A stretch of DNA of 26,916 bases from a virus, in IMG/VR virus record IMGVR_UViG_3300027784_000032, positions 1-26,916 of that record; one strand, written 5' to 3'. A program made the translations under genes and the position numbers. A model generated the notes under the pieces. It did no database searches, was not told where the DNA came from, and was given only the letters and a program-made list of their open reading frames with translations. Of this stretch, positions 1 through 5,407 are shown piece by piece. Each line of letters begins with the position of its first letter. The first letter of the stretch is position 1.

Positions 1-690
1 GAGGTATGCCACCGCTCGGGACTCGGCCTGGGAGCCGTCGATGTAGGCTAGCTTCATCCCAGGGTCAGCGATGAATACTGTCTTGACCCGCTCCGTGATA
101 TTCTGAAGGTTGGAGCCTCGGCCATAGGGGTCCTTCGATGAGGCCCAGCGGCCAGTCTTGGTCCCCGCCACCTTGAATGTAGCGTGGAATCGGTAGTCCT
201 TGATCTTCTTGGCCTGGAGAGCCTGGAGCAGCTTCTCCCGGTCCCGATACTCCAGAATCAACCGAGCCATAAACCCTTCGTGCATGTAAGGATCGAAGGA
301 TTCCAGTGTTTCCCGGTTGGAGGACTGGAGCTTGTGGCCCATGCTGTTAAACGCCTTGATGATTTTCTGCGGGGATGAAATGAGGATTTCTTCTCCCCAC
401 AGAGCCTCTGAGCATTGCCGGAATATCTCCGTCAGCCGTTCCATTTCTTCTTGAATGTGGCGCACCTTCTCCGGAACTAATGTTCCGTCGAGTCTGATCC
501 CCCGGAGGGACATTTCCAGACTCGGTTGTTGGAGAGCGCGCATAAAATTGTAGGTTATCCGGGAGTGCTTGTCAATGTTTTGGTACCGCTTACGGAGAAT
601 TTCAGCGGTGACACAGCAGTCTAACCCGTTGTAGACCTGGAAATTCTGTTCAGCGGAATTCGGCATCCCTTCTCGCGTGTTAATCCACAT
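1..690 (-). CDS. Family A DNA polymerase, polymerase-domain part (partial, runs off left edge)
   Basis: This is the template-directed DNA polymerase part of a PolI-like replicative enzyme. The 230 visible residues start MWINTREG. Residues 20-24 are YNGLD, which fits the Exo III motif (YxxxD) of PolI-type 3'-5' exonucleases. Residues 179-185 are TGRWASS, followed by SNLQNI, which matches the conserved TGRLSS...LQNIP stretch. Residues 215-225 are AYIDGSQAESR, which fits polymerase motif A (DYSQIELR) with D218 as the metal-binding aspartate. Motifs B and C lie beyond the window. I chose the ATG at 690 because AGGAGG sits 10 bases upstream, inside the end of the preceding gene; a second ATG at 666 is possible. 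The start overlaps the helix-turn-helix gene by 11 bases. Exo motifs I and II are in a different gene (1075-2211). The polymerase assignment is firm; the exact start is less so. Confidence 0.9.
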   Translation of the reverse strand, partial: MWINTREGMPNSAEQNFQVYNGLDCCVTAEILRKRYQNIDKHSRITYNFMRALQQPSLEMSLRGIRLDGTLVPEKVRHIQEEMERLTEIFRQCSEALWGEEILISSPQKIIKAFNSMGHKLQSSNRETLESFDPYMHEGFMARLILEYRDREKLLQALQAKKIKDYRFHATFKVAGTKTGRWASSKDPYGRGSNLQNITERVKTVFIADPGMKLAYIDGSQAESRAVAYL

Positions 691-1075
691 TCCAGCCGCG
701 CCTCCTATTCTCGGTATATCGGTGGTCCCCTTCCCTAATTACGTCCTCGATGGGCCAGCCCAGGGCAATTCTTTGCTTGACCGTGTTGTACGGGATTCCG
801 TACTTCTGGGAGATTTCCTTTCTGTTCAGGTACTCGCCGTTGACATCGTATTGGATTACGTCTCGACGGCGGTTAATCGCAGACTTCGGAAAGAGCCCCT
901 TGGCCTCCGGGCATTTCTTGATGAAGCACTTGATGCTTTCATGGCTCACCCCGAGGTGTTCTCCGGTTTCTACGATGGTGTAGCCTTTCTTGGCGTAGCC
1001 TCGGAGAACTTCCAGAGGACCAAGGTGCGGCCAATTGGCTCGGACCAGAATCTCGAAGGTCGTCTCCTTGGGCAT
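680..1075 (-). CDS. Small protein with two helix-turn-helix motifs, lying inside the split polymerase
   Basis: This 131-residue protein is probably DNA-binding. Residues about 31-53 (YTIVETGEHLGVSHESIK...) and 80-112 (YLNRKEISQKYGIPYNTVKQRI...GWPIEDVI) each look like a helix-turn-helix. The second resembles the DNA-recognition modules attached to phage HNH homing endonucleases, but no H-N-H, GIY-YIG or LAGLIDADG nuclease motif is present. The ATG shares one base with the stop of the upstream gene (TAATG), preceded by AAGGAG, so translation is probably coupled. Its end overlaps the polymerase start. The position, between the Exo II and Exo III motifs of one enzyme, suggests it arrived as an inserted gene or is the remnant of a homing endonuclease. 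That is inference; it could also be a polymerase accessory or regulatory factor. Confidence 0.75.
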   Translation of the reverse strand: MPKETTFEILVRANWPHLGPLEVLRGYAKKGYTIVETGEHLGVSHESIKCFIKKCPEAKGLFPKSAINRRRDVIQYDVNGEYLNRKEISQKYGIPYNTVKQRIALGWPIEDVIREGDHRYTENRRRGWNVD

Positions 1076-2211
1076 TACTCCAACTCCTTGTTGGTCTTTC
1101 CTTTCCGCATCAGCTTCCAGGCCGGCTCGTTGGTGAACATACTGCCCAGGGTCCCGAGGTCTGCCGGGAGTTCTGGCTGGAGCGCCCTGGAGAGGATCAG
1201 GGTGTCGTGGATATTCCCTTGGAGAGTGATTCCGAGTTGTTCGTAGAGCCAGAAGATGTCGTAGAGGCCATTCTGGAGGACCTTGGCCACGGCTGCATCC
1301 TGGCACATGACCTTGACCCATTCCCAGGCCCGGATTTCCTCTTCCTCAGACTGCCAGTAGGAGCCATTCTCTTGCCGGGTGTCCGTGAATGGAATGACCA
1401 GAGCATGGTTCTCGTCCGCGGAGAACCCCACGATGGAGATTAGCTGCTGGTCCGGGATCGTCTCGATGTCTACTCCCGAGTAGGTGGCCTGCTTGAAGTA
1501 TGTGTGGTAGAAGTCCTCGATGTCCTCCAGGGTTGGGTCGATGAGAATGTGGCGTTCAGGCCGGGAGATTGTCGGGTCGTCGGCCTGCTCGGCCACCTTC
1601 ATCATGTGCATCAGGCAGATGGGGCGCTCCTCGTAGTTCCGAAGAATAGCCGCCGGGTGGGTCATAGGAATGACCTTGTATCCCGGTGGGAGAGAGGACT
1701 CGGCTACGGTTCCCCGGATTTTGGTGATGCCAGTCTGGCCGAGCACTGCCCAGCAGGCTAGGTTCCCCATCGGGATAATGATATTGGGGTCAGTCTCCCG
1801 GATTTCGTCGGCCAGTTCCGGGAGCCGATAGAGAAACCGGGGCGGGAGGTAGGCCCCGGCGGTGCCGATGTGGGGCCAAGTATACTTGTCTGGCCAAGGA
1901 AACGCTGGGTATTGCTCCCGGAGAGTTTCCTTCCAGTCTTGGTACTGCTGGTCTACCTCCTTCTTCTTGTAGCAGAGGTCGGCCACCTTATTCGTCGGGC
2001 TGCGCCACGGGAGAACATTCGTCACCCGGACATGGTTCCGGGAAAGCCCGGCAATCTCCAGCCAGTCATTGAGTTCCTGGCCAGCCCCGCCGACGAAAGG
2101 AACCATCTTGTCTACCTCGGCCTTGGCCGGAGCCTCCCCGACGATCATAATGTCGGCATTCTTCGGGCCGCTCGGCGGCACCGGGATATTGTTGACTGGT
2201 TCGTGTGCCAT
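1075..2211 (-). CDS. Uracil-DNA-glycosylase-like domain fused to the N-terminal part of a PolI-type 3'-5' exonuclease
   Basis: This 378-residue protein has two domains. Residues 20-205 look like the uracil-DNA glycosylase superfamily: GEAPAKAE (25-32), then PFVGGAGQEL, TNVLPWRSP (64-72), a G...GITKIRG stretch and IPMTHPAAIL (181-190). No CxxC pair of the family 4 iron-sulphur type is visible at the N-terminus. Residues 243-378 are the front of a proofreading exonuclease: Exo I VDIE (D248, E250) and Exo II NGLYD (N314, D318). The protein stops at residue 378, before the Exo III YxxxD motif, which lies in the polymerase gene two genes downstream. From memory, SPO1-like phage polymerases also carry a UDG-like domain at the N-terminus, so the fusion order has precedent; the break does not in my knowledge. 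GGAGGGATA precedes the ATG. Whether the UDG domain is catalytic is unknown. Confidence 0.85.
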   Translation of the reverse strand: MAHEPVNNIPVPPSGPKNADIMIVGEAPAKAEVDKMVPFVGGAGQELNDWLEIAGLSRNHVRVTNVLPWRSPTNKVADLCYKKKEVDQQYQDWKETLREQYPAFPWPDKYTWPHIGTAGAYLPPRFLYRLPELADEIRETDPNIIIPMGNLACWAVLGQTGITKIRGTVAESSLPPGYKVIPMTHPAAILRNYEERPICLMHMMKVAEQADDPTISRPERHILIDPTLEDIEDFYHTYFKQATYSGVDIETIPDQQLISIVGFSADENHALVIPFTDTRQENGSYWQSEEEEIRAWEWVKVMCQDAAVAKVLQNGLYDIFWLYEQLGITLQGNIHDTLILSRALQPELPADLGTLGSMFTNEPAWKLMRKGKTNKELE

Positions 2212-3685: not shown

Positions 3686-3714
3686 AATATACTATAGTCA
3701 GGCGCAGATGTCAA
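3686..3714 (-). promoter_or_regulatory. Sigma70-like promoter of the recombinase operon
   Basis: On the minus strand TTGACA (3714-3709) is followed after 17 bases by TATATT (3691-3686). The -35 is consensus and the -10 matches 5 of 6. The predicted transcript starts near 3679, about 18 bases before the ATG of the ATPase gene. The -35 overlaps the stop codon of the upstream gene. Confidence 0.8.
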
Positions 3715-4079
3715 TGATCGTTCGCAGAATCCTTCCTCATCGAAGACATTGCCTTCTCCATTTGTTCCGCTGTCTTCTGGATCAGCGTGTGGATATTCTC
3801 CGACTTGGTCAGGTCGTACTGACCCATTTCCCCGAGGGATGCCTCCAGCATGGCATGGAGGATCATGGAGTCGATACCGGAGACTAGGATACCCAGGTCT
3901 TGGTCATAAAGGTGCTGGTTCTCCTGCTTAATGCTCTCCGTGATGATAGACTGAATCTTCGCCACGATTGCGAAGTAAGTCTGGATTGATTCCACCGAGT
4001 CCTGGGGGACGTCTTCCATGAGGCTGTAAGAATCCAGGACCGGAATCTTGATGGCTCCGTCTTGGCCTTTCTCAGTCAT
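3711..4079 (-). CDS. Protein of unknown function (122 residues) between recombinase and nuclease
   Basis: I do not recognise this protein. It is mostly helical by eye, with a polar start (MTEKGQDGAIKIPVLDSYS) and a helical stretch of alternating hydrophobic residues (VESIQTYFAIVAKIQSIITESIK) that may mediate oligomerisation. There is no cysteine and no membrane segment. I chose the internal ATG at 4079 because AGGAGGTAGC precedes it; an ORF extension further upstream overlaps the nuclease gene and has no ribosome binding site. It starts 1 base past the stop of the Cas4-like gene, so the two are probably coupled, and it may serve recombination or replication. Confidence 0.65.
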   Translation of the reverse strand: MTEKGQDGAIKIPVLDSYSLMEDVPQDSVESIQTYFAIVAKIQSIITESIKQENQHLYDQDLGILVSGIDSMILHAMLEASLGEMGQYDLTKSENIHTLIQKTAEQMEKAMSSMRKDSANDH

Positions 4080-4080
4080 G

Positions 4081-5106
4081 CTACCTCCTGTCGAGAGGGT
4101 TCCACTGGAAGTCCGGGAATTGAGCCAAGTATTGTTCCCGGACGGCGGGGTCCTTGGAGCAGATGGACCGGAATGGACAGCCGCCATAAAGGTCGCAAGC
4201 CTTGTCGTTCATCGGCCAGTGGTCCATCTTGGCGTAGAGTTCGGCGTGGAATACCCAGACCTTCAAGTCTTCCAGAAACTCGCTGATCTGGGCCGGAGTC
4301 CGGGGAGCATACCCCCGGCTGAACCGGGTGAACTGCACCGCCTTCTGGATGCCGTCGATAATGACTCCCGCTGCTGGCCGATCCAAGACTAGCTGGCTGG
4401 CCAGGGCATACAGCGACACCTGATTGTCCGGGGAGAACTTGTCAAAGAAGGACTGGTAGAGCTGCTGCTTGGAAGTCTTCCGGTCCATGATCCAGAGTTG
4501 TATGCCATCCGTGACCACCCGGTCGATGTGGCCGGAGAGGAGAATTTCCTCTCCGTCCTGAGTCTCGATCCCGGTGGGGGATGTGAAGGAGAGTTCTACC
4601 GCGGTCTTGCCGTTTGGGAGGACGTAGGTTTCCAGGGGGTCATTCTGGTATTGCTCCGTGTACCAGACGATGGCTCGGGCTAGGGCTTCTGGCGAATGGT
4701 AGGAGTCCAGTTCGTAGAAGCGCCAGACCTCGACCTCGTCATGGCCCAGGCAGTCTTCATCCCGCTGGGTGTAGCACTCCCGGCAGTATTCTTCGTCCGG
4801 GTGGTAGATGTGGCCGCAATGGGTGCATTCCACCCGTTCCTCCCGGTAGCCTAGCTGGAGCAAGCCTTCCCGGAGGGCAATCTTCTGAGCCTCGTCATGT
4901 GACAGGCCCTCGATTCTCCGGGCGTCGTAGACCTCCAGGGCATGATGGATGGCGATGCCGAAGACCAGGGCTTGCTTGGCTCCGGGAGCATCCTTGCCAC
5001 GGATCATCTTGTAGTAGTACAGTGTGGGACAGGTCTTGAGCCAGCCAAGACTGGTGGAATCCCAGACTGTCTGGAGATTGGGGATGTGCCCTGAGAACGG
5101 GGACAT
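4081..5106 (-). CDS. Cas4/RecB-like PD-(D/E)XK nuclease with a zinc-ribbon insertion
   Basis: This 341-residue protein has the hallmarks of a Cas4/AddB-type 5' exonuclease: AIHHALE (residues 52-58), acidic residues ending in GHIDRV (D195), and the core D208-R-K210 in IMDRKTS. One cysteine near the start (C26) and three near the end (C304, C310, C316 in CDLYGGCPFRSIC) fit the iron-sulphur cluster of this family. An extra module at residues 94-111 (CTHCG...CRECY) looks like a zinc ribbon, which is not part of the minimal Cas4 fold. The start at 5106 is preceded by GAGGAGGCACCGCT. In this setting it probably resects DNA ends for the Sak4-like recombinase. There are no Cas genes nearby. Confidence 0.8.
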   Translation of the reverse strand: MSPFSGHIPNLQTVWDSTSLGWLKTCPTLYYYKMIRGKDAPGAKQALVFGIAIHHALEVYDARRIEGLSHDEAQKIALREGLLQLGYREERVECTHCGHIYHPDEEYCRECYTQRDEDCLGHDEVEVWRFYELDSYHSPEALARAIVWYTEQYQNDPLETYVLPNGKTAVELSFTSPTGIETQDGEEILLSGHIDRVVTDGIQLWIMDRKTSKQQLYQSFFDKFSPDNQVSLYALASQLVLDRPAAGVIIDGIQKAVQFTRFSRGYAPRTPAQISEFLEDLKVWVFHAELYAKMDHWPMNDKACDLYGGCPFRSICSKDPAVREQYLAQFPDFQWNPLDRR

Positions 5107-5128
5107 AGCGGTGCCTCCTCTCCGCTGG

Positions 5129-5407
5129 TCAGATTTGGATGTCGTCGAGATCGATGTCGTCGATGCTGGGCTGGGCTCCTCCCTTCTTAGTCTGCCGATG
5201 ATTCTGCTTGGTCCCCTTCTTCTGAGCCTTCTTCTCATTCTGCATCCAGCGTTGGCGGTGCTGTCTCATTTCCCTGACAATGGCCGAGAGTTCCTGATCG
5301 GTCAGGCTCAGAGGGTCCCGAGCAAAGAGTTCTGAAAGGTCCTGGTGGTCAGAGAACTCTGCCAGGGGATTCTCGTCTGCGTTCTGGGAGAAGTCTTGGT
5401 TGTCCAT
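5129..5407 (-). CDS. Small early protein with acidic C-terminal tail IDDIDLDDIQI
   Basis: I do not recognise the family of this 92-residue protein. An acidic N-terminal half (MDNQDFSQNADENPLAEF...) leads into a basic helix (REMRQHRQRWMQNEKKAQKKGTK) and then a strongly acidic, hydrophobic tail PSIDDIDLDDIQI. The same kind of tail closes several other leftward proteins in this window (6020-6487, 6591-7157, 13075-13674). The ribosome binding site is the recurrent TGAGGAGGCACC directly before the ATG. It precedes the nuclease gene by 22 bases. A basic nucleic-acid-binding body plus an acidic protein-docking tail is a reasonable reading, but it is inference. Confidence 0.7.
   Translation of the reverse strand: MDNQDFSQNADENPLAEFSDHQDLSELFARDPLSLTDQELSAIVREMRQHRQRWMQNEKKAQKKGTKQNHRQTKKGGAQPSIDDIDLDDIQI

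Follow-up and report, generated by a model that had tools for sequence, protein, structure and literature searches.

The break and the parts of the locus

At one end of the window (the whole 26,916-nt stretch of IMG/VR record IMGVR_UViG_3300027784_000032 that was analysed), the gene for a family A DNA polymerase is interrupted between the exonuclease motifs Exo II and Exo III, and a helix-turn-helix (HTH) gene lies in the break. Is proofreading destroyed by such a break, are the halves rejoined as RNA or protein, or do two separate products work together? We put the probability at roughly 80% that an ancestral gene fission has become a stable two-subunit proofreading polymerase, the subunits of which would assemble and proofread in trans.

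The uracil-DNA glycosylase-exonuclease (UDG-exo) gene, the HTH gene and the polymerase (pol) gene follow one another on the minus strand, with all three open reading frames (ORFs) overlapping: the HTH start codon shares a TAATG (1077-1073) with the UDG-exo stop codon, and the HTH gene stops 11 nt inside the pol gene. Because the UDG-exo half matches positions 478-788 of the DNA polymerase profile phrog_17 and the pol half matches positions 805-1024, the two proteins correspond to adjoining stretches of a single known protein. The complete set of exonuclease motifs (Exo I DxE, Exo II NxxxD and Exo III YxxxD) is present in the window, distributed over the two proteins at exactly the residues named in an earlier, sequence-only reading (Table 1); its claim that the proofreading site is encoded on two polypeptides is borne out by motifs placed on either side of the break. 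The Exo I-II region matches PF01612 just below the cut-off of that model (E 1.5e-4). The pol half, about 490 aa at full length in relatives, leaves the window past motif A, so that motifs B and C of this copy are out of view.

Absent from the sequence-only reading was the glycosylase domain of the first gene, for which PF03167 scores 74.5 bits against a curated cut-off of 24.3. Its GEAP, PFVGxAG and HP motifs make it family-4-like, with a predicted glycosylase activity; one relative, L024, matches the T. maritima UDG TM0511 (1vk2) at 3e-16. The motif residues are mostly retained among the split relatives described below (Glu of motif A in 99 of 106, His of the HP motif in 102 of 106).

The same virus record encodes a Sak4-like protein, a Cas4/RecB-like exonuclease, a UvrD-type helicase and a dNMP kinase, together with terminase, portal and capsid proteins. 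One ORF of the window (3711-4187, minus strand) shares ~100 nt with the 3' end of the gene for the Cas4/RecB-like exonuclease (4081-5238, minus strand), and its true start is probably further downstream. DNA-level comparison of the window with phage records gave no matches, near or distant.

Table 1 Coordinates of the split polymerase genes and their motifs in the window
Feature	Position	Strand	Support
UDG-exo half, 378 aa	1075..2211	-	PF03167 1.2e-20, phrog_17 2.7e-26
Uracil-DNA glycosylase domain (predicted), residues 12-195	1627..2178	-	PF03167 1.2e-20
Exo I motif D248-I-E250	1462..1470	-	D and E in 106/106 split and 25/25 fused rows
Exo II motif N314-GLY-D318	1258..1272	-	Aligns with Klenow QNLKYD
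HTH gene in the break, 131 aa	680..1075	-	Sigma70_r4 1.5e-8, phrog_3377 3.4e-7
AAGGAG ribosome-binding site of HTH gene	1084..1089	-	8 nt before HTH ATG
AGGAGG ribosome-binding site of pol half	701..706	-	10 nt before pol ATG
Pol half, 230 aa, cut by window edge	1..690	-	PF00476 5.4e-13, phrog_17 1.3e-24
Exo III motif Y20-NGL-D24 (YNGLD)	619..633	-	Aligns with Klenow YAAED
Polymerase motif A aspartate D218	37..39	-	Invariant in alignment A2 and in 106/106 split rows

The same split across a large phage clade

A first fetch from IMG/VR with the pol half returned 74 loci, and every locus that had both halves was split at the window's junction. As a single query against IMG/VR, the UDG-exo half returned no matches; the pol half and the UDG-exo alignment (A1) returned many, and the census was widened by a fetch with A1 and by another from bacterial genomes. 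Before dereplication it comprised 146 split loci and not one fused locus in the window's clade. The four fused loci that it contained, three in annotated phage records and one on a bacterial MAG contig, were all distant, and further fused relatives were then fetched deliberately for the tree. In the tree, built from 131 dereplicated sequences, 104 of the 106 split relatives form one clade without a fused member and are cut at the same junction, with a 100% branch separating them from the fused sequences. The clade is 30-43% identical to the window, and the UDG-exo half taken by itself is 32-43% identical to 53 relatives. The proposed search for intact relatives and for the joint yielded a fused and a split clade and a single junction, between Exo II and Exo III; close relatives that are all intact, the finding that was expected to speak against a genuine break, were absent, every relative in the clade being split. 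The tree shows what would be one fission, in the ancestor of a large phage clade, but the split may have arisen more than once near the base because the fused neighbours are only moderately close.

A sequencing or assembly artefact, as a single metagenomic contig with the window edge nearby might suggest, is refuted: 104 dereplicated loci, drawn from many metagenomes, have the same break, and so does a sequenced isolate, Caulobacter phage Kuura, which falls inside the split clade. Kuura is a complete plaque-forming isolate (PMC9959647), and no other PolA, PolB or Pol III was detected in its genome; its split form shows viability and says nothing on proofreading. The split is real, and a local accident, an intron and a sequencing error are ruled out as accounts of it.

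Catalytic residues retained on both pieces

Alignment with Klenow places Exo I and Exo II on one side of the break and Exo III on the other, so neither half is able to form the exonuclease site alone. The Asp and Glu of Exo I, the Asn of Exo II and the Tyr and Asp of Exo III are present in 106/106 split rows, and the Asp of Exo II in 105/106, where it changed once, to Glu; for comparison, the commonest residue of the median column occurs in 63% of rows (0.63). The motif A and C aspartates of the polymerase are likewise found in all 106 split relatives. Among close pairs, the UDG, Exo I-II and pol segments all have dN/dS values of 0.05-0.18; by this measure, purifying selection is shown to act on the glycosylase, Exo I-II and pol parts.

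The sequence-only reading had left two outcomes side by side, assembly in trans or loss of proofreading, and conservation across the 106 split relatives favours the first. If proofreading had been lost, subunit 2 would be an exonuclease-free polymerase and the exonuclease of subunit 1 a relic that travels with the glycosylase. The sheet with Exo I-II and the helix with Exo III do lie on separate proteins, neither of which has a complete site by itself, and inactivated exonuclease domains occur in some phage PolAs, as in the variant divPolA1 (PMC11348598). Yet a relic would decay, as it has in divPolA1, where the exonuclease aspartates are lost, whereas the window's clade keeps all of them: none of the six motif residues is missing from more than one of the 106 split rows, and dN/dS in the Exo I-II segment is as low as given above. 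We therefore consider the loss of proofreading unlikely. Because the two pieces between them retain every key residue of the site, they very probably fit together as one working enzyme, and the same preservation on both sides makes trans assembly directly testable. With somewhat less confidence than in the main reading, we think it probable that this lineage has had an obligate two-subunit proofreading polymerase since its ancestor, with the exonuclease site formed solely at the interface between the glycosylase-exonuclease and polymerase proteins.

A structural model was obtained for the L024 chain, read through its single stop codon and folded with 77 relatives (mean pLDDT 94.7, pTM 0.91). 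Its sole weak internal stretch, 328-335, lies at the break (residue 337). The model superposes on Bacillus Pol I over 178-810, spanning the break (VIA-align Z 34.0, 535 residues, rmsd 3.2), and its top Foldseek match is E. coli Pol I (9.8e-28). In the model, the joined chain is a continuous Pol I fold over the exonuclease and polymerase domains, and the weak stretch at the break together with the Pol I superposition puts the cut in a surface loop of one continuous fold, although folding as a single chain with fused relatives in the alignment favours a closed fold. The loop at the joint has about 17 residues in fused enzymes and about 35 (about 13 + 22) in split ones, in which the ends recur as a ...TIKR(E/D)(D/E) tail and an M(K/R)II head.

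These short ends also bear on a split intein, which would join the two proteins by protein trans-splicing and would resemble the fractured genes of Dassa 2009 (cited in PMC10448857), which have an endonuclease in the break; the layout, host gene halves on either side of a nuclease gene, is the same in some loci. The UDG-exo proteins end 11-17 residues (median 13) past a conserved WK, and the median distance from the start of the pol proteins to Exo III is 22 residues; ends so short leave no room for an N-intein together with a C-intein of about 35 residues. The pol N-termini lack a His-Asn end followed by Cys, Ser or Thr, and no intein signature is present in the sequences, which leaves a split intein with a practically negligible probability.

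A gap with changing contents

In 20 of the 104 clade loci the two halves abut or overlap without a gene between them, while 84 have a gap of >100 nt with ORFs of its own and differing contents; the tree calls for at least 14 switches between having and lacking an insert. Where the halves abut, stop and start codons mostly overlap (TAATG, TGATG or ATGA) and the relative frames are mixed, the pattern of coupled genes whose products are translated separately. Together with the AGGAGG ahead of the window's pol gene, these stop/start overlaps uphold the earlier argument for separate translation of the halves. Ribosome-binding sites are modestly enriched before the pol genes of relatives (48% vs 31% in shuffles), an enrichment too weak to serve as proof and dropped as such.

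The two halves of L024 and L047 lie in one frame with a single TAA codon between them (L024:3938-3940, L047:3935-3937), where readthrough would yield a full-length fused enzyme. Programmed frameshifting or stop readthrough might in this way make some fused protein besides the two pieces, the more so as stop/start overlaps are common in the clade. However, the relative frames vary among the abutting loci, no slippery site is conserved, and the 84 loci with a gap have more than 100 nt and other ORFs to cross, all of which makes such a product very unlikely.

Most of the 125 insert proteins scanned are of no known kind. The commonest kinds are DUF7768 (15), DUF1937 (7) and KTSC (7); 21 of the 125 match the nucleoside 2-deoxyribosyltransferase family phrog_355, and nucleases are a minority, with six HNH_3 proteins (PF13392). 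Small 2-deoxyribosyltransferase-like proteins (DUF7768, DUF1937, DUF4406) recur in the gaps, for example in L002, L011, L018, L034, L056 and L135, hinting at a nucleotide-metabolism link with the UDG-polymerase.

The HTH protein of the window has two HTH units. Sigma70_r4 scores over its cut-off (Table 1) and NUMOD1 under it (0.0022), and the second HTH matches the C-terminal part (92-145) of phrog_3377, an HNH family. The match is confined to that part, with no HNH nuclease motif in the HTH gene. The gene is possibly the DNA-recognition remnant of an HNH endonuclease, judging by a match that generic HTH models equal or better. Searches of phage records and IMG/VR found no relatives of the gene, and comparison with the other insert proteins (phmmer, BLAST) gave no significant match. 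The HTH gene was considered as the cause of the break and rejected, given its lack of relatives in those collections and the 20 loci that are split without an insert. Contrary to the idea that it broke the polymerase, the same break is ancestral to 104 loci; with 20 of these lacking a gap gene and at least 14 insert changes on the tree, the HTH gene is not the maker of the split and is best seen as one more passenger in the gap.

How the split may have begun

L179 and L163, both on the fused side of the tree, are two further, independent splits at the same junction. In L179, an insert of 437 nt that is filled by an HNH endonuclease ORF (L179:4024-4460) divides the polymerase at the precise point between residues 341 and 342 of L174 and L176, its fused and intact sisters (61-75% identical). 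This ORF runs at its 3' end into the pol frame, and no obvious ATG start for the pol half lies near the joint. The third independent split, L163 (MAG contig JAGWIG010000144.1), lies on a distant branch and has a 60-aa ORF of no known kind in the break. A homing endonuclease gene is present in the breaks of L179, L003, L008 and L069 and not in that of the window; in L179 and L008, the match of the HNH protein to phrog_3377 covers the nuclease part (6-96). L179 makes a likely cause visible, an HNH gene inserted at the same point, and offers a before-and-after view of how such a split can start. By analogy with this one independent case, an HNH insertion is also the most likely start of the ancestral split. 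Insertion followed by loss of the nuclease fits as an origin, but the short HTH match (3e-7, against 1.5e-8 for a generic HTH model) is weak evidence that the window's gene is such a remnant.

A seamless joint, as L179 would have, is also what a group I or II intron would leave, the halves being joined by RNA splicing, and group I introns are known in the polymerase genes of phages SPO1 and Bastille, according to works cited in PMC10580990. The 20 loci without an insert nevertheless have a stop and a start between the halves. The window insert is taken up entirely by a 393-nt ORF, as the sequence-only reading had argued, and Rfam searches of the window and 14 other loci yielded no hit at the gathering score. 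When the breaks of the window and L179 were searched permissively, L179 gave nothing and the window only weak, unrelated matches (E 0.6 or worse). Since divergent introns can escape Rfam, the case against an intron is strong for the clade and weaker for L179 alone; overall, we regard splicing as extremely unlikely.

Under the preferred reading, a functional fission, the locus would encode a two-subunit replicative DNA polymerase of family A (Pol I type). Subunit 1 would combine the uracil-DNA glycosylase domain with the larger part of the 3'-5' exonuclease fold, Exo I and II included; subunit 2 would consist of the last part of that fold with Exo III, followed by the polymerase domain. Both would be made separately from one operon, and the metal-binding proofreading residues would meet across the subunit interface on assembly. 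The fission would have happened once, in the clade ancestor, most likely through insertion of a free-standing HNH homing endonuclease gene; it would then have been fixed, with both new ends lengthened (from about 17 to about 13 + 22 residues), and the gap would have become a slot for small genes that come and go, the window's HTH gene being one such passenger. The local account, in which an HTH insertion broke the gene, is replaced by that of a clade-wide two-subunit polymerase, which we infer to be functional.

Comparison with known split enzymes

The closest fused relatives, exemplified by the UDG-exo-PolA polymerases (PHROG 17) of Microcystis phage Mel-JY34 and Desulfofustis phage LS06-2018-MD01, share the domain order and the motifs. 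They are encoded by one gene, whereas the window has two, divided between Exo II and Exo III and longer by ~18 residues at the joint. Kuura (Kuura_029, Kuura_026) has the same split as the window, with two other small genes in the gap in place of the HTH gene; its exonuclease half is annotated only as hypothetical, and no split is mentioned (PMC9959647). The nearest family A precedent is provided by the OM43 phages MEP401 and MEP402, in which PolA is also encoded by two ORFs with a small unknown ORF between them, an arrangement that occurs in most group I genomes (PMC10580990). There, however, the cut is inside the polymerase domain, which leaves the exonuclease whole in one piece, whereas the window's cut passes through the proofreading site.

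Two other phage systems support the trans-assembly step. In the T4-like Aeromonas phage 25, the pieces of a split DNA polymerase (gene 43A/43B), with a homing endonuclease gene nearby, co-purify and polymerise (reviewed in PMC2988022); this polymerase belongs to family B, not family A, is cut at a different place and occurs in few phages. In Aeh1, the HNH gene mobE splits nrdA, which encodes an essential ribonucleotide reductase, and the halves reassemble into an active NrdA (reviewed in PMC2988022). A stop/start overlap marks the joint of nrdA as in the window's clade, but the enzyme is a different one and its nuclease is still in the break, whereas the window's gene has no HNH match. The hallmark of the Aeh1 type, intact homologues together with a copy split at one precise point, is found in the window's family.

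So far, split polymerases have figured as oddities of individual phages or of small groups of them. In the present clade, which is deep (30-40% identity), a single cut through a catalytic site has been retained throughout, and no earlier report of such a clade-wide cut was found in the part of the open-access literature that was searched. Within it, a search for split PolA and UDG-PolA fusions yielded only the OM43 and jumbo-phage papers as relevant. If the reading is correct, proofreading could depend on the subunit ratio and be gained or lost by association, the seam would offer phages a protected place to swap small genes of nucleotide metabolism, and the natural two-component proofreading polymerase might find use as a tool. 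The locus also carries a warning for annotation: with its exonuclease half labelled 'hypothetical', Kuura would be scored as a phage without proofreading.

Other interruptions in the family

Fused-side loci are interrupted at other places as well, among them L212 (Vibrio phage vB_VspS_VS-ABTNL-3). In L196, L200, L201, L202 and L207 the gene is interrupted near polymerase motif A, and breaks on this side recur at about position 210-212 of alignment A2, just before that motif. L199 and L205 are interrupted between the UDG and exo parts. Four of these loci (L196, L201, L205 and L207) were checked and gave no Rfam intron match. Within the split clade, the UDG-exo half of L022 (L022:1822-3432) is itself broken inside the glycosylase domain, into two frames ~430 nt apart.
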